Below are positions 12,509 through 56,458 of a stretch of DNA of 64,000 nt, in pieces. The stretch spans positions 124,001-188,000 of the forward strand of contig NZ_JAALJH010000004.1 in NCBI RefSeq assembly GCF_011064615.1, written 5' to 3'. Source of the stretch: Aquisphaera insulae. Lineage in GTDB: Bacteria; Planctomycetota; Planctomycetia; Isosphaerales; Isosphaeraceae. A model generated the notes under the pieces. The model was not told the DNA's origin. It saw only the letters and a list, made by a program, of their open reading frames with translations, and searched no databases. The position numbers and the translations under genes were made by a program. Every line of letters starts with the position of its first letter. Position 1 is the stretch's first letter.

Positions 12509-13332
12509 GGGTATGACTCCGGCCGCGAGGGCGGCCATCGTGGTTGAGCGTCGAGAGCGGGCGAGATCATGCGACGTCGGACCGAGGAGAGGTCCGTAAG
12601 ACTCTACCAGGGGCCCGAGGCAACGGGAAGGCCCGGGCACAGTTCCCGACCGCGAACGAAGCGCGCCGGACGGAAAGATGAGATTGGCTTTGATCGTTCA
12701 TCGAACCTCACTGATTCGTCAGCCGTAAGTCATGCATCTATCAAGTCTTGACATCGAATCTCGAATTGGCTTTGATGGCGCGCCTGGGTCGCGTTTCGTC
12801 CCCGGTCCTGGCTCGGATCGGGGCATCGATACGGCCTGCTCCAGGCGACGGGAAGTCCGGTCATGCAGTCGGGAAGCCTGCCGGCGCATGGACGTTCGCT
12901 TTCGGGTTCGGCGTGAATCGAGCGCGCGGAATCTCGTCGTGCCTACTCAATAAGATCCCGAAAAAACGCTCGTGAGTTTCATGGTTGGCGGGAATTTTGA
13001 GAAATCGTGCGGCGCGACGCGGTCCACGTGGCGACGATCCGGTCTTCACCCTTCGATCCGGGTGCGACTCGCACTCACGATCCCCACGGATTCCTCAGAC
13101 CGGGAGGAGGCCGGACGGGCCCGCGGTTGGCTCAGGAAGCTGGTGATAGTCCTTCCCGGCACGGTGCTGCTCGCGACCTGCCCCGACGCCCGCTACCGCG
13201 ATGGACACAAGGCGGAGTGACCTGGCGGCCCAGGCTGGGAAATCCGCGAGATTTTCTTGGTTTCCTGTAGGGAATCGTCGTTCGCCTGCATGGGAGATCA
13301 GAGAGAAACGCAGGCACGATGGGGTTGATGCC
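12509..13332. other. Intergenic region upstream of the sigma-thioredoxin gene
   Basis: There are 824 bp with no convincing gene; short open frames here have no recognisable pattern. It contains a 12-bp direct repeat ATTGGCTTTGAT at 12681-12692 and 12765-12776, the second copy overlapping a promoter-like pair. GC is lower than in flanking genes. Confidence 0.5.
12748..12776 (+). promoter_or_regulatory. Candidate sigma-70-type promoter
   Basis: TTGACA (12748-12753), a 17-bp spacer, then TTTGAT (12771-12776). The -35 is a perfect match; the -10 matches 4 of 6. It points toward the sigma-thioredoxin gene, whose start is about 555 bp away, so a long leader would be implied. Confidence 0.3.
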
Positions 13333-15843
13333 ATGAGGCCCGAGAGATCGCCGGACGTCCTGAGGCAGGTGCAAGCGCTCTTTGGACCGGGCGCGACCGC
13401 GGGGGTTTCGGACGCGGAATTGCTGGAGCGATTCGTCCTCCGGAAGCGGGAATCGGCCGAGGCGTTGGCGTCCGCCGAGGCCGCATTCGAAGCGATCGTG
13501 GCGCGGCACGGGCCGATGGTCCTGGGGGTCTGCCGCCGGGCCCTGAACGCGCCGGCCGACATCGACGACGCGTTTCAGGCGACATTCCTGATCCTGGTCC
13601 GCAAGGCCGGCTCGGTCCGCGTGGACGGCTCGCTCGGCCGCTGGCTCTACGGCGTCGCCCGCAAGGTCGCGGCGCGAGCCCGAATCCGGGCCGAACGGCA
13701 GAGGGGCCGGACCTGCTCGCTGATCGACGACCCCGAAGCACCGGCCGGCGCCTCGAATCGGGATGAACGATTCGGTATCCTTGATGAGGAAGTGGCAAGC
13801 CTTCCGCTCCGGTATCGGACGCCCGTGATCCTCTGCCATTTCGAGGGCCTGACCCAGGCCGAGGCCGCGGCCCGGCTGCATTGCCCGGTCGGCACGGTCA
13901 GCGGCCGGCTGACTCGCGCCCGCGGCATGCTCCGCCAGCGGCTCGTCCGCCGCGGGCTGGCCGTGAGCGCCGGGGCACTTGCGAGTGACTTCGAGATCGG
14001 CGCAGCCCGGGCCGCGGTTCCGCAAGCCCTCGCCACCTCGACAAGTCGGGCCGCGGCAGCGCTGGCCACGGCCGGATCCTCGCCCACCGGGATCGTCTCG
14101 GCCGCAGCCCTATCGCTGATGAACGAGACCGCCCGCGCCGTGTCCGCCGTCCGGCTCGGCCTGGCCGCCGCAGTCGTGCTGGCCTTGAGCCTGGCGGGGT
14201 ACACCGTAACGACGGTGCGGGGCCAGTCGTCCGCTCCGCCGCGGATTGTTCAGGAGAACGATGGATCGTCCGCTGGGGCCGCCCCGACGAAAGGCACGAC
14301 TCAACAAACCTCCCCCAGCGCCGACGCGGGCGAACGACCGGGACATCGACCGGCGGATGAGATCGTCGCGGAGCTGGACGCCACGGTCAGGGCCTCGGAG
14401 GGGAAAACACCGCAGATGGCGAATCTGGCGCTGGAGCGTCGAGAGGGCGTTTATCGACAATTGCAGGAGAAGCTCGCGACTCTTGCGGAAGAGCTGTACA
14501 CTCACTTCCCCGAGGATCCGCGACTCGGCAAATACCTGCCGGAGCGCTGGGCCGCATTGAGATATTCCAGCCGCGACTCCCTGGCAAGGGATGAGATCGC
14601 GAGGGAGCTGAGATCCACTAGCAACCCCGCCCTGCATGCGTCGGCCCTGTATTTCGACGCCGCAATCCGCTATCAGGACGGTCCGATCGACAGCACCTCC
14701 GCCGTGGCACTCGCCGATCGATTCGCCGCCCAGGTCCCGGGCGATCCTCGAGCGGCGAGCCTGCTTCGGCAAGCGGCCCTCCAGGTCGACTACGCCCGGA
14801 ACGCCCGGCTGGGATGGCTCGTCGCATGCCTGCTGGTGCTTCGCCTGGTCCTGCTCAACCGGCGAAACCTGAAGCTGGCGTGGCGTTCGACGGTGGTGCT
14901 CCTCGGCCTGGCCTGCGCGAGCGCGATCGGGATCGCTCTTTTCGCCCCCGGGGGCCTTCCGGCGGTCACCGCGAAGGTCTACAACGCGGCGATTGACCCA
15001 CAGCGCACGCAACGGGTCATGATGATGGCTGGGCTCTTCGAGATGGAATTCCGCAAGTGCCTCCAGGACATGCCAGGTCTTCACGAATCCCTGCTATTGC
15101 TCTCCCTGAGCCTGGCGACGACCCTCGGCCTGCTGGCGATCCTGGAGCGGCGGAGAGGGCCCGACGCCCCAGACGGCCAGCCTCATTCCGTCCGCCGGAT
15201 CGCGGCTATTCTCCTGGCAACGCTGAGCGCCTTCTGCCTGGCCGATGCGGGACGCATGGAGATCTGGAAACACGTAATCTTGAACCGGGTGACCAGCCAA
15301 TTCCCCGACTCCTTCTCGGGCCGTCTCATCCATGGCGAACGGCGGCAGGCCCACGCAATCGGCCAGCCGTTCGAGCTGGAATTCACCGATGTGATCTCGG
15401 GGCGACGGGTCTCGATGAGGGACTTACGCGGCAAGGTCGTGCTCATCGACTTCTGGGCGACCTGGTGCGGACCCTGTCTCGGCGAGATCCCGAACCTCAC
15501 CGAACTCTACGACCGCTACCATGACCGCGGATTCGAGATCGTGGGCGTCAGCCTCGACAATGCGGAAGACGAGAACGGCCTTGAGGATCTCAAGAGAACC
15601 CTGGCCGAGAAGAAGATCCCTTGGCCGCAGTACCATCAGGGAATGGGCTGGGGCGAGAGCATCAGGACGGGCAAGTCCACGGACACCTTCTCCGAGTCCT
15701 GGGGCATCTCGATGATCCCCACATATTTCCTGATCGACGCCGACGGCCGGCTCTATTCGACCGAAGCCCGCGGGAAGCTGGATGACCTGGTGCCTCGCCT
15801 GCTGGACGCCCGGGACCAGAACCGTGGTGGAGATCGTCGATGA
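13333..15843 (+). CDS. ECF sigma factor fused to five-TM region and TlpA-like thioredoxin domain
   Basis: An 836-residue fusion. Residues 45-206 are an ECF sigma factor: region 2 (VLGVCRRALNAPADIDDAFQ) and region 4 with its helix-turn-helix (EGLTQAEAAARLHCPVGTVS). Membrane helices follow at about 273-292, 492-509, 519-537, 585-604 and 622-637, with a helical domain at 340-490. Residues 676-826 are a TlpA/ResA-type thioredoxin with WCGPC at 711-715 and the cis-Pro in MIPTY (794-798). Loops 510-518 and 605-621 are Arg/Lys rich, so the positive-inside rule puts the sigma domain in the cytoplasm and the thioredoxin outside. The ATG at 13333 is preferred over 13201, which adds a non-conserved head. 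It probably senses envelope redox state or delivers electrons; this is inferred. Confidence 0.92.
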   Translation: MRPERSPDVLRQVQALFGPGATAGVSDAELLERFVLRKRESAEALASAEAAFEAIVARHGPMVLGVCRRALNAPADIDDAFQATFLILVRKAGSVRVDGSLGRWLYGVARKVAARARIRAERQRGRTCSLIDDPEAPAGASNRDERFGILDEEVASLPLRYRTPVILCHFEGLTQAEAAARLHCPVGTVSGRLTRARGMLRQRLVRRGLAVSAGALASDFEIGAARAAVPQALATSTSRAAAALATAGSSPTGIVSAAALSLMNETARAVSAVRLGLAAAVVLALSLAGYTVTTVRGQSSAPPRIVQENDGSSAGAAPTKGTTQQTSPSADAGERPGHRPADEIVAELDATVRASEGKTPQMANLALERREGVYRQLQEKLATLAEELYTHFPEDPRLGKYLPERWAALRYSSRDSLARDEIARELRSTSNPALHASALYFDAAIRYQDGPIDSTSAVALADRFAAQVPGDPRAASLLRQAALQVDYARNARLGWLVACLLVLRLVLLNRRNLKLAWRSTVVLLGLACASAIGIALFAPGGLPAVTAKVYNAAIDPQRTQRVMMMAGLFEMEFRKCLQDMPGLHESLLLLSLSLATTLGLLAILERRRGPDAPDGQPHSVRRIAAILLATLSAFCLADAGRMEIWKHVILNRVTSQFPDSFSGRLIHGERRQAHAIGQPFELEFTDVISGRRVSMRDLRGKVVLIDFWATWCGPCLGEIPNLTELYDRYHDRGFEIVGVSLDNAEDENGLEDLKRTLAEKKIPWPQYHQGMGWGESIRTGKSTDTFSESWGISMIPTYFLIDADGRLYSTEARGKLDDLVPRLLDARDQNRGGDRR

Positions 15844-31790: not shown

Positions 31791-32331
31791 GGAGCAGGTC
31801 CAATCATCAGTCCGGACTCGGACCTCGTCCACGTTCTCCCGGTGATCGACCGGCCTGTATGTGGCCCGCCCGATCGAGGACGCGGTCCATTACGAATGGA
31901 TGGCTCCGTGGCGACCCGACGGAGCGGGGGCAACCCATGGATTGCGACTCTCGATCCCGGCGCACCGTGACGGCCGACGTCAGGTCGCGACACAACCCAT
32001 CCCCATGATCGCAGGTTTCGTGCCCGGATCCATGGGCGGCTTCGACGACGGGAGTTGAGGAGGCGGAATGAAAGCCACCAGGGGCCAAGAGACCGGCGGC
32101 TCTTGCCGTTGGTTGCGTTGAGGAAAGGACTTGCGACTCAGAAGGGGGCAATGAAGGATTCGGAAGATCGAGGGAAGTCGAGAGACGGAGAGGCGCATGG
32201 CCGGTCTCTGCGTCGATCGCGACCGGCCAAGGCCTTCGGTCCAACACGATTGATCGTCGTGATCCCGGGCAATCGTGATGGAAATCTGAGCACGGCGGGG
32301 ATTGGATCCCTGAAACGCATACAAGTCAGGA
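31791..32331. other. Intergenic region with no recognised gene
   Basis: There are 541 bp between the citrate synthase start and a PEP-CTERM tail on the minus strand. Short open frames on both strands show no family pattern. It should contain the gltA promoter, but no clear boxes were seen. Confidence 0.5.
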
Positions 32332-32532
32332 TCACTGAGACACTCGCACACCATGTCGAGCCACCAGGAGGGCTCCGACGAAGCCTGACCCAATCGCCAG
32401 GGTGAATATCGATACCGGCTCCGGGATGGCCGCGGGATTGAGGGGCAGCTCGATAATCCCGCGATAGGGGCCGTCGAGAGTATCCGTGTTCGAAATATCG
32501 TTCCACGTACGCCCTCGATGAGTCACCCTCAA
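32332..32532 (-). pseudogene. Tail of a truncated PEP-CTERM protein
   Basis: The last 66 codons of a sorted surface protein: AAIPEPVSIFTLAIGSGFVG is the PEP-CTERM motif followed by a membrane helix, then ARHGVRVSQ as the basic end. No signal peptide or body precedes it; only 36 bp separate it from the stop of the intact PEP-CTERM gene upstream. Read as the surviving end of a deleted gene, or the last exon-like remnant after a recombination between tandem copies. Confidence 0.6.
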
Positions 32533-32568
32533 GGATAACTTACCGCGTGGTCCGATTTCCGGGGGCCA

Positions 32569-33657
32569 TTACAAGAGCCTGAACTTGCGGACGATAACCA
32601 AGCCAGCCAACCCAACGCTAGCGGAAGAGAATAGGAGCAGACCCGACGGCTCTGGCACAGCATAAGAAATGAGTCTGATCTCTCCATTACCACCCTGCGA
32701 GCCATTGGCGGCCCCAAAGCTCCCGGAACCACCGGAGCCAGGCGAAACGTCAAGTAGACCTCCCTTGTTAAGAAACCCTCCGTTACCTGTGGCGATGAGA
32801 ATTCTGCCACCCCCTCCGCCCCCACCTCCGGCTGTAAAGGGGGCCTTGATCGAGCCTCCGTCACCTCCTCTGGCGAGCAATTGAGCTGACGGTCCATCCA
32901 GGCTCACTGAGTTTCCGTGAATGAGAATTCCCCCACCGCTTCCTCCTCCTCCGCTAACCGAGATGTAGTCCGCAGTTCCCCCGGCACCACTGGCCGATAT
33001 CTGAGACTTGATTACGATGTTCCCGTTCGCTCCGATTTCGATGGCACCGCCACCACCACCGCCGTATATGCTCGCGCTGTTGTTGCCATTCGCGCCGCCA
33101 CTCCCTCCTTGAAGCAACGTAGCCAGGTCTCCGTATGCTTTGCCACCGGTAGCATTCGGGGAGTTGCCGCCAGCCCCACCGAAGCCCCCTCCGCCGCCCG
33201 GCGCACTTCCACCTCCAGGGCCGCTGCCAGGTTGGTTGATACTCCCTTGGCCAGCCCCAAGGTATCCTCCGGCGCCAGCGAACGACCCTTGGGCGTCGAG
33301 ATTTAGGTTGCTCGCGATGAGAATGTTGCTTCGAGACAATAGTGCGAGCGGAACGGCGTTATTCCCCGAATTGTGGCCAGATATCGCAACCGTTATGTCC
33401 GCAGTAATGTTAATCGAGTCAAAAGTGAAGACCGCGACGCCGTTCGAAAACACGCCCGAAATAAACCCTCCGCCCGAGAGGTTGAGTCGTGGAGCTCCGA
33501 GGAATGTATTCGTGTCGAAGGAGTAGGCCCCTGGAGCGGAAGGGAAGGCCCCCAACGACGCGAACGAGTTTGGGTCGAGGAATCCGGCTTGGGCATCCGC
33601 CTGGCAATACACACCAACGACTGCCAGGAAGCAACTGAAAGAGCATCGCCTGAGCAT
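32569..33657 (-). CDS. Glycine-rich PEP-CTERM surface protein
   Basis: A 362-residue exported protein: signal peptide (1-25; LRRCSFSCFLAVVGVYCQADAQA), an Asn/Ser-rich beta region with NITADITVAISGHNSGNNAV, a long Gly-rich stretch with many GGGG runs (about 150-320), and a C-terminal sorting signal (VPEPSGLLLFSSASVGLAGL, then RKFRLL). PEP-CTERM proteins are exported and processed by an exosortase; none is in the window. The ATG at 33657 has GGAGATG upstream and is preferred over one six codons earlier. The glycine-rich repeat structure suggests a flexible or fibrous surface component. Confidence 0.85.
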   Translation of the reverse strand: MLRRCSFSCFLAVVGVYCQADAQAGFLDPNSFASLGAFPSAPGAYSFDTNTFLGAPRLNLSGGGFISGVFSNGVAVFTFDSINITADITVAISGHNSGNNAVPLALLSRSNILIASNLNLDAQGSFAGAGGYLGAGQGSINQPGSGPGGGSAPGGGGGFGGAGGNSPNATGGKAYGDLATLLQGGSGGANGNNSASIYGGGGGGAIEIGANGNIVIKSQISASGAGGTADYISVSGGGGSGGGILIHGNSVSLDGPSAQLLARGGDGGSIKAPFTAGGGGGGGGRILIATGNGGFLNKGGLLDVSPGSGGSGSFGAANGSQGGNGEIRLISYAVPEPSGLLLFSSASVGLAGLVIVRKFRLL

Positions 33658-33770
33658 TGGGAAGCATCTCCACATCTAAAGCCCCTGGAACTCGAGTCCT
33701 GACTTGAGCTTGGTCATCGAACTTGGGAATCCTCAAAGTTGAGCCGACACCTCTGAGGCGGATTTTTGGC

Positions 33771-33800
33771 TTGAACCGAACGGTCTCGTTTCACGATAAT
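33771..33800 (+). promoter_or_regulatory. Candidate promoter of the sigma/kinase operon
   Basis: TTGAAC (33771-33776), 18-bp spacer, GATAAT (33795-33800). Matches 4 of 6 and 5 of 6, 85 bp before the sigma-factor start. Confidence 0.4.
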
Positions 33801-33884
33801 CGGGACCAACGATTGCTGATCAACCGGCGAAATCCACATCATCAAAGTCCGCATCGTCGCGACCCCACTGGCACGGTGAGGTTC

Positions 33885-34463
33885 ATGGCCCATAATTCAG
33901 AGTCGCTGATTCGGGCATCCCATGATTCGATCACCGACCACTTGCTCGAAAGCTATCGCCCCTACCTGCTCATGATCGCAGGACGCGAGCTCGATCCCGT
34001 CCTGAAAGGCAAGTGCGGGCCTTCTGACGTGGTGCAGGAGACACTTATCGAAGCCCATTACGGAAGGACGGCATTACGCGGTGGCTCGTCCGAGGAGGTG
34101 AAACGGTGGCTCCGCGGTATCCTTCACAACAACCTCCGCGACCTTGGGCGACGATTCCGGCAGCAGAAGCGACAGGCCGGAAGAGAAGTCCCGATCGGCC
34201 CGGAGCATGCGGCCGGGATCGCCGACGACGAATTGACGCCGAGCACTCGCGCGAGTCGGAATGAAGAGGTCCTGGCGCTGGTCGCGGCGATGGAACGGCT
34301 GCCGGAGGCGGACCGCAGGGTGATTGAACTTCGCAATCACGAGCACCTGCCGTTCGCCGACATCGGCAAGATCCTCGGCAAGTCTGCGGATGCGGCGCGG
34401 ATGCACTGGTTCCGGGCTATCGATCGGCTGTCTCGAGACATGGCGCGGAACCATGGCGATTGA
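33885..34463 (+). CDS. ECF-type RNA polymerase sigma factor
   Basis: A 192-residue sigma-70 family factor. Region 2 is at about 22-88 (YRPYLLMIAGRELDP, CGPSDVVQETLIEAH, WLRGILHNNLRDLGR), and region 4 at about 126-185 (ALVAAMERLPEADRRVIELR, FADIGKILGKSADAARMHWF). ATG at 33885 with GGTGAGG upstream. The stop lies inside the next gene: an 11-bp overlap with the kinase-WD40 start, so the two are translated together. The kinase is the obvious candidate regulator, a pairing seen in planctomycete ECF groups linked to Ser/Thr kinases. Target genes unknown. Confidence 0.92.
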   Translation: MAHNSESLIRASHDSITDHLLESYRPYLLMIAGRELDPVLKGKCGPSDVVQETLIEAHYGRTALRGGSSEEVKRWLRGILHNNLRDLGRRFRQQKRQAGREVPIGPEHAAGIADDELTPSTRASRNEEVLALVAAMERLPEADRRVIELRNHEHLPFADIGKILGKSADAARMHWFRAIDRLSRDMARNHGD

Positions 34464-37400
34464 CGAGCCTGGCGATGAATCGCGGACGGAGGACGAAGAG
34501 CTGGCGGCGATGCTCGCCGCCTATGACGCGCGGCCTCGACCGCCCGATGAACAGACGGCCGCAGAGCCGCCGACCCAACTCGACCCGTCCGATTTCGCGC
34601 GATTGACCCGGGCGGTCGAATGCGTCGACCTGCTGCACCGGATCTGGCCTGAGCCGAGCCAGGGTGAACCCTCGGCTCGAACCTTCGGAAAGTTCGAGAT
34701 CATCCGCGAACTGGGCCGAGGCGGTCACGGTGTCGTCTTCCTGGCGCGCGACACGACCCTGAATCGCAAGGTGGCGCTCAAGGTGCCTCGCCCGGAACTC
34801 CTGGAGGATCCTCAACTTCGTCGGCGATTCCTCAGGGAAGCCCAGGCCGCGGGGATGCTCGACCATCCGGGGATCGTCCCGGTCCACGAACTTGGCGAGA
34901 TCGGCCCGGTCTGCTTCATCGCATCGGCCTTCTGTCGAGGGTTGACTCTTGCGGACTGGCTCGCCACGCGGGATGGCCCCCCACTGTCCGCCCGATGGGT
35001 GGCCGGCCTCGTACTCATGGTGGCGGAGGCCGTCGCCCACGCCCACTCGCGAGGCGTCGTTCATCGGGACCTCAAGCCCCGGAACATCCTGCTCGAGCCG
35101 GTCGCAACCTCGGAGTTCGAAGGCGACGGGCCGAGCTTTCGCCCCAGGGTCACGGACTTCGGACTCGCCAAGCTCCTGGAGGCCGGAGCCGAGATCACCC
35201 AGACGGGAGCCGTCCTGGGAACGCCACGATACATGGCGCCGGAGCAGGCATCGGGAGATCATGAGCGCGTCGGACCTTCGACGGACGTGTATGCCCTCGG
35301 GATGATCCTGGGCGAGTTGCTCAGTCGGGCCAGCGGAGCGAGGGAGGGGAAAGCCGGATCCGATGCGGGCGAACGCATGCTCGCCGCCCCTCCATCCCTG
35401 AGGAGGATCCTCAGGGGCGCCACCGGGCGTCGACCCGAGGACCGGTATCCCGACGCGGCCGCGCTGGCCGCGGACCTCCGCCGATTCCTGGACGGAGAGC
35501 CCATCCGGACTCCTCGACGGCTCGTAGGGCGAATATGGTTGGGCGCGGCGGGTCTGTTCGCTCTCGCCGTCGTCCTGGCTTTCCGGGTTTCGACGAGGCG
35601 GGAGGCCGCGGAGGGACCGGCCCCCACGACACTCCCCGCGAAACCGGAATCCCCGGATATCGTCGCTCGGACGAATCATTATGTGAGCGTCCTCAACGCC
35701 GTGGAGGCCTTCCTACCTATAAGGCTCGATGATTCCTCGAACATTCAGAAGGCCCGGCAGCTCGTTAAGGAGCAAGAGCCGCGGACCGGCGAGCCCGACC
35801 TTAGATCGCTGGACTGGTTCCACTCCCGTCGCCGTCTGCACGACGAGCGAGCCACGCTGGCCGGACACCGCGGGCCCGTCTACAAGGTCGCTTACTCGCC
35901 CGACGGGTCGATCCTGGCCTCCGCCGGTGAGGACGGTGTGCGGCTCTGGGACACAGCGACCGCAACGCTGCGGAGGACAATCACGGGCCACGAAAGCGAC
36001 GTAAACTGGGTGGCTTTCTCTCCGGACGGCCTGCAACTCGCAACGGCCAGCGACGATGGTTCCGTCGCGCTCTGGCGGTGTTCGGACGGTGCGAACCTGC
36101 TCGGACGGCTGCCCCATCCCGCCAAGGCGGTGGCCGTGATTTTCTCAACCGACGGGCAACGATTGATTTCCGGAGATCGCGACGGTTGGGTCGTTGTCCG
36201 AGAGTGCGTCGGCGGGGGAGAAGTCGCTCGCTGGCGTGTCTACGAGGGAGGGGTAGAGGGCATGGCCGCACTGTCGGACGGAGAGTCCGTGGCGATCGCA
36301 ACCTCGCGCTGGTTATTGCGACTCAACGTGACGACGGGAGAGGTTTTTCCGCTCCTTCACGCGGAGAAAGAAACGGCCTTCCGCAACGTCTCGCGGTCGC
36401 GGAACGGCGACATACTGGCGACATCAGGCGGAGCGGGTCGCGGGGTGCGCATCTTGCGGATTCAGACTCCGGGTGCTCCTCTCTATGCCTATTCCCACGA
36501 CGTCGAATCGACCGCATTCTCGCCCGACGGGACGCTCCTGGCGTCAGCCGGGACCCTATCCGCCATCGGCCTTCACGACGTCGGAAAGGGAAGCGTTAGG
36601 GGTTTCCTGCTCGGCCATGACGGGCGCGTCTGGGATGTCGCCTTTTCTCCCGACGGCCACACTCTGGCCTCAGCGGGTAACGATTCCACGGTGAAGGTCT
36701 GGGAGATTCCTCCGCGAACCGGGATCCTACCATTCTCCGAAGGGATGCCGCAGATCGCCGCGATGGCCTTCTCCGCCCACAGCCGATCGGTTGTCACCCT
36801 GAGCATCGACGGTTACGTCCGTACATGGGATCGTGGGACCGGGGAAATGCAGCTCGAGCTGGCTATGATCCCGCCGGGAGAATCTCCGATCGGGCAAACG
36901 CTCTCGCCCGGTGCGGTCCGGATCGCCTGGAGTCGGGCCGACGGGACCATCGTCGTCAAGGGTGTCGATGGGGCCGACCTAACCACATTCGAGGCCAACG
37001 CCGACCCGACCGTCCCCTGCCTCCAGTTTTCCAGTGACGGTTCGCGACTTGCCTTCGCTACGATGGATGGGCATGCGGCATGGCTCGCCTTGGACCAGCA
37101 CGATCCTCGCGTGTTGCGACTTGAGCCCGCCTTGACGTCCATCAGCAGACTCGCTTTTACACCGGATCGTTCGAAGCTCGCGGCCGCAGGCGGCGGGGGC
37201 ACAATCCTGCTCTGGAACCTTCCGGACGGGACCCTTCTTCGGAGAACGGCATCGGGTCATGCTGGCCCGCTCAGCGTGTTGACGTTCGCCCCTCACGTCG
37301 GCCCCGCGTTTTCGAGCGGAGTTGATGGCAAACTGGTGCTCCATGACGGAACAACGGCCGAGCCCATCAAGATTATCCGGGATCGAGATAGCTGCTTCGA

Positions 37401-37680
37401 AACTGTGGAGATCTCGGCTGACGGTCGCTGCGCCATATGGCCCTCGGCGGTCGATCATCCGCTCGAGACATTCAACATCGCGACACTGCGCACTTCCATT
37501 CACATGAAATGGTTTCATGATCGCGGAACGACGATCCCCCGCTCCCAGGCCGACGGCCACATGATATGCATAGCCCCGGATGATTCCGCCGTGGCCGGTT
37601 GCATGACGGACTTCGGGCAGAAGCGCAGCTGGGGAACCATCTGGCTCGCGCCGAGGGATTCGGAAGACGTCCGCGAGTGA
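34453..37680 (+). CDS. Membrane-anchored Ser/Thr protein kinase with WD40 repeats
   Basis: A 1075-residue kinase. The catalytic domain (80-345) is complete: glycine loop GRGGHGVVF, K110, HRDLKPRN (D206), DFG 235-237 and APEQ in the activation segment. A single TM helix is at 361-378, after which WD40-type repeats fill about 460-1075, each with the PDGSILASAGEDG-type turn and WD/WE ends. Given one TM, the propellers should lie outside the cytoplasmic membrane, sensing an envelope signal. The ATG at 34453 overlaps the upstream sigma gene by 11 bp. The kinase probably controls that sigma factor. Confidence 0.93.
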   Translation: MAIDEPGDESRTEDEELAAMLAAYDARPRPPDEQTAAEPPTQLDPSDFARLTRAVECVDLLHRIWPEPSQGEPSARTFGKFEIIRELGRGGHGVVFLARDTTLNRKVALKVPRPELLEDPQLRRRFLREAQAAGMLDHPGIVPVHELGEIGPVCFIASAFCRGLTLADWLATRDGPPLSARWVAGLVLMVAEAVAHAHSRGVVHRDLKPRNILLEPVATSEFEGDGPSFRPRVTDFGLAKLLEAGAEITQTGAVLGTPRYMAPEQASGDHERVGPSTDVYALGMILGELLSRASGAREGKAGSDAGERMLAAPPSLRRILRGATGRRPEDRYPDAAALAADLRRFLDGEPIRTPRRLVGRIWLGAAGLFALAVVLAFRVSTRREAAEGPAPTTLPAKPESPDIVARTNHYVSVLNAVEAFLPIRLDDSSNIQKARQLVKEQEPRTGEPDLRSLDWFHSRRRLHDERATLAGHRGPVYKVAYSPDGSILASAGEDGVRLWDTATATLRRTITGHESDVNWVAFSPDGLQLATASDDGSVALWRCSDGANLLGRLPHPAKAVAVIFSTDGQRLISGDRDGWVVVRECVGGGEVARWRVYEGGVEGMAALSDGESVAIATSRWLLRLNVTTGEVFPLLHAEKETAFRNVSRSRNGDILATSGGAGRGVRILRIQTPGAPLYAYSHDVESTAFSPDGTLLASAGTLSAIGLHDVGKGSVRGFLLGHDGRVWDVAFSPDGHTLASAGNDSTVKVWEIPPRTGILPFSEGMPQIAAMAFSAHSRSVVTLSIDGYVRTWDRGTGEMQLELAMIPPGESPIGQTLSPGAVRIAWSRADGTIVVKGVDGADLTTFEANADPTVPCLQFSSDGSRLAFATMDGHAAWLALDQHDPRVLRLEPALTSISRLAFTPDRSKLAAAGGGGTILLWNLPDGTLLRRTASGHAGPLSVLTFAPHVGPAFSSGVDGKLVLHDGTTAEPIKIIRDRDSCFETVEISADGRCAIWPSAVDHPLETFNIATLRTSIHMKWFHDRGTTIPRSQADGHMICIAPDDSAVAGCMTDFGQKRSWGTIWLAPRDSEDVRE

Positions 37681-49927: not shown

Positions 49928-50005
49928 TCCCGCACGCGATCGCCGGGGGATTGTGCCGGCAGCGAGAGACCTTACCGAATTCACCCTTAACGGCTGGAGG
50001 CTCAC

Positions 50006-51169
50006 ATGTCACACCGCAGCGCGTCGCGAATCCGGACGGGCCGAGGCTTCACCCTGATCGAACTCCTGGTCGTGATCGCGATCATCGCCGTCCTGATCGC
50101 GCTCTTGCTCCCGGCCGTGCAGTCGGCCCGCGAGGCCGCCCGTCGGGCCCAGTGCGTCAACAACCTGAAGCAGCTCGGCCTCGCCCTGGCGAATTACGAG
50201 TCCGCGAACTCGTCATTCCCCATGGCCTGGTTCTGGAACTTCTGCGAACAGGGGGCCACCTGCAACGGCTTCGGATCGCCCGACATCGGGGACGGCTTCG
50301 GGCCCCTGGTCGCCCTCCTGCCGTACTACGAGCAGGGCCCGCTTTGGAACGCGTACAACACGAGCGTCCAGCTTTACGGTGACACGAATTCGACGATCGA
50401 CGGGACGGGAGTCGCGACCCTCTGGTGCCCCAGCGACGGGTCGATTCAGGGATATCGCGCCGTCTACGCCCCGAACGAACTCTTCAACAACCTGCCCCAC
50501 CCCATCACCTTTTCGAACTACCGCACGAGTTGGGGCTTCTGGACCGGGAAGTCCACCGGGGCCCAGGGCACCGGCGAAGCGGTCGCCGACAATGCCCATC
50601 GACTTACCGCCCTGGCCCAGTTCAACGGACCCTTCGTCCCCAACGGGTACGGGACGGCGGGCGGCGCCGTCCTCACGAGCCGGAAAGGCGTCGCCAGGGC
50701 GCCGGTGCGACTCGCCGCGGTCACCGACGGGACGAGCAACACCATCGGGTTCAGCGAGCTGGCGCACGGCCTGCTCTCGAACGTCGTCCCGACGGGCGGT
50801 TCGCACTCCCCCTTCGATGACCGAGGCTGGTGGGTCGGGGGGAATCTCGGCGACTCGAGCTACACGCACTACTGGCCCGTCAACCCCCAGAAGCGAAGCA
50901 ACGTCCGCCCGCAGGATCAGGGCACCGCGTTCCTCCACGGTGCATCCAGCTTCCACCCCGGGGGAGTCAACGCGGCGTTCGTGGACGGCTCGGTCCGTTT
51001 CATCAAGGAAACGATCGACACCTGGTCCTACGATTCGGCGACCGGCTATCCCGTCGGCGTGACGAAGGACGCCTCGGTTTGGGTCCCCGGCGTCGGCACC
51101 AAGGTCGGGGTCTGGCAGGCCCTCGGATCGATCAACGGCGGCGAGGTCATCAGCGCCGATCAATACTAG
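50006..51169 (+). CDS. DUF1559 domain protein with type IV pilin-like N-terminus
   Basis: A 387-residue exported protein. Residues 12-45 are a prepilin signal and hydrophobic helix ([20 protein letters not shown]), cleaved by a prepilin peptidase-like enzyme; the [20 protein letters not shown] helix follows. The DUF1559 body (about 60-387) ends with the signature FHPGGVNAAFVDGSVRFIKE and NGGEVISADQY. Planctomycetes carry many such genes. Their role is unproven; a pilus-like or surface structure is usually assumed. GGAGG precedes the ATG. A strong hairpin follows at 51193-51230. Confidence 0.92.
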   Translation: MSHRSASRIRTGRGFTLIELLVVIAIIAVLIALLLPAVQSAREAARRAQCVNNLKQLGLALANYESANSSFPMAWFWNFCEQGATCNGFGSPDIGDGFGPLVALLPYYEQGPLWNAYNTSVQLYGDTNSTIDGTGVATLWCPSDGSIQGYRAVYAPNELFNNLPHPITFSNYRTSWGFWTGKSTGAQGTGEAVADNAHRLTALAQFNGPFVPNGYGTAGGAVLTSRKGVARAPVRLAAVTDGTSNTIGFSELAHGLLSNVVPTGGSHSPFDDRGWWVGGNLGDSSYTHYWPVNPQKRSNVRPQDQGTAFLHGASSFHPGGVNAAFVDGSVRFIKETIDTWSYDSATGYPVGVTKDASVWVPGVGTKVGVWQALGSINGGEVISADQY

Positions 51170-55287: not shown

Positions 55288-55459
55288 AGGGACCGTCCAT
55301 CCACGCGCCCACTGATCCACGGCATCGAGCCAGCTCGCGACGTGATCCGTCCCGGGGTGTCCTGCATCCTCGGGGCATCCGACGATCGCGACCGGATCGG
55401 GGTGCGCGCCTCGTCAGCCTTCGACATCCATCATCGCCCCGTACTCGAGAGGATTCACC

Positions 55460-56458
55460 ATGAAGTCCCGGATCATGCGCGCCGGTTTCACGCTCATCGA
55501 GCTGCTCGTCGTCATCGCCATCATCGCCGTCCTGATCGCGCTGCTCTTGCCGGCCGTCCAGTCGGCCCGCGAGGCGGCCAGGCGTGCCCAGTGCACGAAC
55601 AACCTGAAGCAGCTCGGGCTGGCCGTGCATAACTACCTCAGCTCGCACGGCCGCTTCCCGATCGGCCGCGGAACGCGCCCTCCCCGTCCGTACGACATCA
55701 CGTCGCGATACAACTACTCCGGCTTCGCCCAGCTCCTGCCGTTCATGGAGCAGAAGCCCCTCTATGACTCGATCAACTTCAACCTGACCATCCCCGTGCA
55801 GGATGGGAACACGACCGTCCTGGTCACGACGGTCAGCTCTTTCCTCTGCCCGACGGAGAGCCAGCAGGTCCCGTCCGGGACGGCGGGGACGAACTATCGG
55901 TTCAACGAAGGGGCCAACACGCTCTATTCCTACGGCGAGACCGATACCGGCTCGGTGAACACGGACCAGCCGGCGCCCAACGGTCCGTTCTTCCCCGAGC
56001 GGTCCATCCTCCTCAGCCAGGTGACCGACGGGACGAGCGGGACGGCCCTCGCCTCGGAGAAGTTGTTCGGCGACTTCAACCAGGGCATCCCGACGATCCG
56101 CCGCGACGTCTACGTCGGCTCCACGTGGCCCCCGAACATGGAGCAGGCGTTCCTGGACTGCGAGGCCACCGACAATTCCAGCATCCCCACCAACGGCGAG
56201 TCCAACGCTGGCACCCCCTGGATCGACGGGTTCCTCCACACCTCGATCTACAAGTCGAACGCGACGCCCAACAAGAAGTCCTGCTACTTCTACCCCGCGC
56301 GGCTCGTGATGACGGTCTCGAGCAACCACCCCGGCGGGGTGAACGTGGCGATGTGCGACGGCTCGGTCCGCTTCGTCAAGGACACGATCAACCGCAACAC
56401 CTGGCGGGCCATCGGCTCGATGAACGGCGGCGAGGTCGTCTCGGCCGACCAGTATTGA
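55460..56458 (+). CDS. DUF1559 domain protein with type IV pilin-like N-terminus
   Basis: A 332-residue paralogue of the 50006-51169 product, with the same prepilin-like head ([20 protein letters not shown] at 9-28), the [20 protein letters not shown] helix and the terminal signature [20 protein letters not shown] and [12 protein letters not shown]. The middle is divergent and shorter. GAGAGG precedes the ATG. It is followed 34 bp later by a lipoprotein gene. Two copies of a pilin-like class lie within 6 kb, consistent with a surface-appendage locus or repeated duplication. Confidence 0.92.

Follow-up and report, generated by a model that had tools for sequence, protein, structure and literature searches.

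A planctomycete ECF sigma factor joined to five predicted membrane helices and a predicted extracytoplasmic thioredoxin domain

A single gene of Aquisphaera insulae encodes, in one polypeptide of 836 amino acids, an ECF sigma factor, a membrane segment (TM1), a helical domain, four more membrane segments, and a ResA/TlpA-like thioredoxin domain. The gene is at 13333..15843 (+ strand) of the 64,000-nucleotide stretch of DNA that we analyzed, which we will call the window. We tentatively propose, at a little less than an even chance, that the protein is a membrane-anchored ECF57-like sigma factor whose outer domain senses conditions in the envelope and whose sigma part is freed by proteolysis.

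Domains and predicted topology

Translation of 13333-15843 (+) gives one open frame with no interruption. There is an alternative in-frame ATG upstream, at 13201, but the start at 13333 is likelier because the protein from a congener begins at the residue that matches 13333. All of the features described below are on the + strand. The initial annotation reported a sigma factor, five membrane segments, and a thioredoxin domain in one polypeptide, and this stands: the frame is uninterrupted, Pfam and NCBIfam profiles match sigma region 2, sigma region 4, and redoxin, and there are five hydrophobic segments. It did not name the helical domain that lies between TM1 and TM2.

The N-terminal part has sigma-70 region 2 (residues 56–119, 13498..13689; PF04542, 2.9e-9), which recognizes the -10 element and binds core RNA polymerase, and sigma-70 region 4 (residues 149–198, 13777..13926; PF08281, 7e-13), which recognizes the -35 element. 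Judging by Pfam, NCBIfam, and fold matches, regions 2 and 4 are present without region 3 or region 1.1, which is the make-up of an ECF factor, and the protein matches the NCBIfam family for sigma70-ECF (1.8e-22). We predicted structures with AlphaFold2 as two separate models, one of residues 1–299 and one of the C-terminal module. In the first (pLDDT 86.8, pTM 0.82), residues 25–126 resemble region 2 of E. coli sigmaE (4lup_A; Z 12.1, rmsd 1.9), and region 4 resembles that of sigL (3hug_E; Z 11.3, rmsd 1.4). Each region has a conserved cysteine: Cys67 in region 2 (13531..13533) is found in 43 of 44 aligned proteins and Cys168 in region 4 (13834..13836) in 39 of 44, with both present in 38.

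Region 4 is joined to TM1 by a helical linker, predicted to be cytoplasmic (residues 207–268, 13951..14136; pLDDT 70–95). Its modeled helices span 213–223, 231–247, and 257 onward, and the last one runs into TM1. No anti-sigma domain was matched by Pfam in the 836-amino-acid protein; the part between the sigma factor and TM1 is predicted to form these three helices. The linker is moderately conserved across the 44 aligned proteins, and it is possible that it is a built-in regulatory element.

The hydrophobic segments start at residues 269, 490, 520, 583, and 619. TM1 (about residues 269–292, 14137..14208) occupies the position of the signal peptide in relatives that lack the sigma factor. It is followed by a low-complexity spacer that is predicted to be disordered (residues 293–337, 14209..14343; pLDDT <50) and then by a predicted extracytoplasmic helical domain (residues 338–488, 14344..14796), which is also present in ordinary secreted TlpA-like proteins of the Isosphaeraceae. 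The four-TM insert (14800..15243) comprises TM2 (490–508), TM3 (520–538), TM4 (583–601), and TM5 (619–637); no Pfam family matched it. The loops between TM2 and TM3 (residues 509–519, 14857..14889) and between TM4 and TM5 (residues 602–618, 15136..15186) are predicted to be cytoplasmic, and both are more positively charged than the outer sides. With the sigma factor in the cytoplasm and a chain that would cross the membrane five times, the thioredoxin domain is predicted, from hydrophobicity and charge, to be outside. The fused relatives in genomes G029 and G002 also have five hydrophobic segments and a similar charge bias. The initial annotation had placed the thioredoxin domain outside on the basis of the positive loops, with a C-terminus inside as the result that would count against it; these predictions agree with the outside placement.

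The thioredoxin domain (residues 677–826, 15361..15810) is complete, as had been claimed. It matches Pfam's AhpC-TSA/Redoxin (residues 688–807, 2e-15) and NCBIfam's ResA (3.7e-19), and its best sequence matches in the PDB are to 2lja (1e-18) and to ResA (4nmu, 7.3e-18). The model of the module (pLDDT 80.5) has a thioredoxin fold, with ResA as the best match (4nmu_B; Z 17.5, rmsd 1.9 over 135 residues). Both the CxxC motif and the cis-proline of this fold are present: the CGPC active site is at residues 712–715 (15466..15477; WCGPC is 711–715) and the cis-proline motif is IPT (795–797).

We considered whether the four helices belong to a known thiol system. A thiol relay like that of DsbD or CcdA was rejected as there was no match to Pfam's DsbD_TM and the membrane cysteines are unpaired and unaligned. 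A VKOR-like arrangement (four membrane helices plus thioredoxin) was rejected as well: there was no match to VKOR and no CxxC in the four-helix bundle. The four-TM part has single cysteines at 499, 528, 576, and 635. The cysteine in TM5 is common to the window's protein and to the proteins of G029 and G002, while those in TM2 fail to align, and among the fused relatives that we compared, no pair of membrane cysteines that could relay thiols is kept.

Relatives with and without the sigma factor

Across 45 genomes from the family, we found that the whole protein is kept in one other Isosphaeraceae genome (44–47% identity; full-length homolog L022). In this genome, G029, a frame of 813 amino acids matches over residues 1–827. 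In the congener G002, the match ends at residue 670 and the thioredoxin domain is missing, and in G030, the frame runs to the end of the contig, which falls inside the last membrane helix. By their sigma domains, the four fused proteins group as one clade (support 100/99). Long open reading frames in G061, G035, and G034 also matched, but they have no sigma domain, and a sigma-thioredoxin match in an MAG from the Opitutaceae (L095 3269-5494) turned out to be two genes, a TlpA-like gene with a separate ECF sigma factor directly after it.

These relatives bear on whether the fusion is real. An error of assembly or sequencing that joined two genes near residue 270, or the absence of the fusion from all relatives, would have undermined the initial annotation. 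Instead, independent assemblies show the same architecture (including those of G029 and G002, of 3 contigs each), the fusion is present in G029, G002, and G030, and the gene is well away from the ends of its 261-kb contig. Together with the five hydrophobic segments and the charge bias shared by the fused relatives, this makes it very improbable that the fusion is an artifact or that the C-terminus is cytoplasmic. It had also been suggested that if homologs part ways after residue 270, then the fusion is a local event. The junction is indeed at TM1 (about 270–300), but the event is not local, as the fusion is found in four genomes of three genera.

Between the window's protein and that of G029, identity is high in sigma region 2 (62%), sigma region 4 (66%), and the thioredoxin domain (60%), but only 25% in the four-TM part. 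TM1 is weakly conserved (33–58% identity). The copy in G002 (L088 6332-8512) has the same neighbor as the window's gene, one for an amidohydrolase. The two amidohydrolases are 86% identical, while the sigma fusions are only 47% identical, and the G002 copy lacks about 25 residues of region 4 as well as the thioredoxin domain, so this copy looks decayed.

That the gene can decay would fit an explanation in which the two halves have separate jobs: the thioredoxin domain would be an ordinary envelope thiol reductase, the sigma factor would be a constitutive or idle N-terminal anchor, and the fusion would simply be tolerated. The existence of sigma-free versions also fits. However, the sigma regions are among the best-kept parts of the protein between genera, and there are three types of sigma-redoxin genes in this one genome, more than one would expect from chance joins that were tolerated. 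We consider separate jobs to be rather improbable, though still a serious rival.

The module beyond TM1 looks like an envelope protein with an addition. When aligned to ordinary secreted TlpA-like proteins of the Isosphaeraceae, it has the helical and thioredoxin domains in common with them, with a clean gap at the position of the four membrane helices, so we view the module as a TlpA-like protein into which four membrane helices have been inserted. A genome from another family of the class, G042, encodes the module without the sigma factor, in a frame of 566 amino acids with a signal-peptide-like start at the position of TM1. In a tree built without the insert's columns, the window's protein and those of G029 and G042 are together (support 100/100), so the insert likely arose just once, as judged from these sequences. 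A query with the helical domain and four-TM part against 392 genomes of the phylum, with few candidates scored per genome, found only the window's genome and G042.

Long sigma frames of this type number 39 in the window's genome, and 36 or 37 of them have a membrane segment after region 4. More precisely, 36 of the 39 have a hydrophobic segment within residues 196–330, with a median start of 265 (shuffled sequences gave a mean of 15.4 and a maximum of 22). Of the 97 blocks beyond residue 340, only 2 contain such a segment. As a rule, therefore, these factors have one anchor, which follows region 4. The C-terminal parts of the 39 matched varied families, mostly of the envelope type (CarboxypepD_reg in 12, redoxin in 3, HlyD in 2), which implies that the far side of the anchor is outside. 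The gene is thus one of many for membrane-anchored ECF57-like factors, and what is unusual about it is the combination of five membrane segments and a redoxin. Two of the long sigma paralogs are side by side on the same strand with near-identical linkers (L047, G000:C263:25500-32000), a recent tandem copy.

The three types of sigma-redoxin genes in the window's genome are represented by the window's protein (P0001), C277 (L034, G000:C277), and C57 (L033, G000:C57). The C57 protein has 1222 amino acids, with a sigma factor, a membrane segment, carboxypeptidase-regulatory repeats, and a terminal redoxin. All three types also occur without the sigma factor in relatives. For C57, six genomes have fused relatives, and G010 and G032 have sigma-free ones. 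For C277, fused relatives occur in seven genomes and sigma-free ones in G032, G008, G027, and G018. For all three types, the match to the sigma-free relatives starts at or after the anchor helix (a few of the C277 matches start slightly before), and several of the sigma-free relatives begin with signal-peptide-like stretches, as judged by eye. The sigma domain of C57 groups with L096, a factor that gave no match to thioredoxin (support 100/100), so the redoxin of C57 was probably gained or lost separately.

The active-site motif is WCGPC in the window's protein and in G029, and WCAPC in the C57 type. Among six fused members that we compared of the C277 type (L034 and L188–L190), two have lost both cysteines, one has CEDC without the tryptophan, and one has SCGPC. 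All seven of the sigma-free relatives of the C277 type keep WCxPC. The numbers are small, but this suggests that a redoxin that is joined to a sigma factor may act as a binding or sensing part and not as an enzyme.

Other features of the window were noticed. At 33723-37680, a short ECF-like sigma gene is followed by an overlapping frame for a Ser/Thr kinase with WD40-like repeats (seen in translation only), an arrangement that resembles the kinase-linked ECF groups of planctomycetes. G+C content falls to 0.584 at 32001-34000, versus about 0.67 around it, over a glycine-rich protein that looks secreted (32569-33675, - strand). Two frames, at 49991-51169 (+) and 55346-56458 (+), both match the same neighbor protein from G042, which has a pilin-like N-terminus.

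Proposed role of the tethered sigma factor

We propose that regions 2 and 4 and the helical linker would be in the cytoplasm, anchored by TM1, and that beyond TM1, the protein would be an envelope protein with the helical domain, the four-helix membrane insert, and an outward-facing thioredoxin domain. Such a protein could have originated from a secreted TlpA-like protein whose signal peptide gave way to a sigma-linker-TM1 unit, or by the reverse. While tethered, the sigma factor would presumably be kept from RNA polymerase or from promoters. The outer module may feel an envelope signal, such as misfolded or oxidized protein or an absent redox partner, in response to which site-1 and site-2 proteases would cut the protein near TM1. 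The freed sigma part would then switch on its regulon. Proteolytic release, which the initial annotation had also raised, is thus plausible. The four extra membrane helices are not required by this scheme. Among the genes adjoining the sigma-thioredoxin gene, none suggests a partner. Several M50 site-2 proteases and a DsbD are encoded in the genome, so machinery of the sort that the scheme calls for is at hand; M50 proteases occur in nearly all genomes, so their presence supports cleavage only weakly. Fused, membrane-anchored ECF factors do have precedents in IutY and SCO4117 (PMC8999054), and IutY, which is a fusion of sigma and anti-sigma factors, is freed by Prc and RseP (PMC8999054).

The sigma factor might instead be switched without cleavage. 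An outer change, in redox state, ligand, or partner, would be passed through TM1 and the linker and would expose the sigma factor, which would be active at the membrane. Regulation by protein interaction and conformational change, and not by proteolysis, has been proposed for ECF57 (PMC8999054), and a moderately conserved linker with ordered helices that continue into TM1, in a model with high overall pTM, could transmit such a change. But TM1 itself is weakly conserved, and among the paralogs, the domains after TM1 differ greatly in size and kind. We think that switching without cleavage is unlikely, yet it deserves to be taken seriously.

The initial annotation raised direct redox-to-promoter signaling. 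In the form that we considered, the outer CxxC would exchange electrons, by way of membrane cysteines, with Cys67 and Cys168, so that the redox state of the envelope sets sigma activity. The frequent co-occurrence of the two sigma cysteines, the intact CxxC in the window's protein and in G029, and the shared cysteine in TM5 speak for such a relay. However, paralogs that have no redoxin conserve Cys67 and Cys168 equally well, which means that these cysteines are not linked to its presence. The CxxC losses in the C277 type and the unpaired membrane cysteines further weaken a direct relay, and G002 has no thioredoxin domain at all. As a general rule, this idea is not supported, and we regard it as a long shot.

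More broadly, Isosphaeraceae may have repeatedly turned secreted proteins into one-piece membrane receptors for transcription, by exchanging the signal peptide for a sigma-linker-TM1 unit. The thioredoxin fusions would then be cases in which a thiol enzyme of the envelope, intact or degenerate, became the sensor of a tethered sigma factor, so that a single protein leads from the outside to the promoter. We offer this broader idea as a doubtful one.

How such proteins are controlled matters because long ECF sigma factors number in the dozens in planctomycetes, with 39 of this type in this genome. If the sensor lies beyond the anchor, then the domain that receives the signal can be read from each gene, and the free secreted counterparts, where they exist, are natural controls. 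With the thioredoxin fusions, the tethered-sensor idea could be tested by simple mutations of cysteines and of the cleavage site.

Comparison with known systems

ECF factors with membrane-spanning extensions are already known. In the literature that we searched, which did not include the main classification papers for planctomycete ECFs, we found no description of a sigma-thioredoxin fusion. The closest group is ECF57, whose members are planctomycete ECF sigma factors with long C-terminal extensions and two conserved cysteines, one in region 2 and the other in region 4 (the pair is described in PMC8999054). The window's protein has these features, but ECF57 is described as having WD40-like extensions, whereas here there are five membrane segments and a thioredoxin domain that is predicted to be extracytoplasmic.

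In IutY from Pseudomonas putida (ECF243), as is predicted for our protein, a sigma factor carries an extension that is anchored in the membrane and partly periplasmic. Its extension, however, is an anti-sigma factor for cell-surface signaling with an outer-membrane receptor, and neither was found here. SCO4117 and the ECF48/52/53 groups of Actinobacteria also have C-terminal fusions with membrane helices and an outer domain, and proteolytic activation has been proposed for them, but they have zinc-finger anti-sigma domains along with carbohydrate-binding or proline-rich parts, and no redoxin. The far end of the protein is most like the ResA/TlpA thiol-disulfide oxidoreductases, with their thioredoxin fold and WCGPC motif (2lja and 4nmu are the closest solved relatives). 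Those proteins are usually secreted, or held in the membrane by one helix, and are not joined to a sigma factor as the domain is here.
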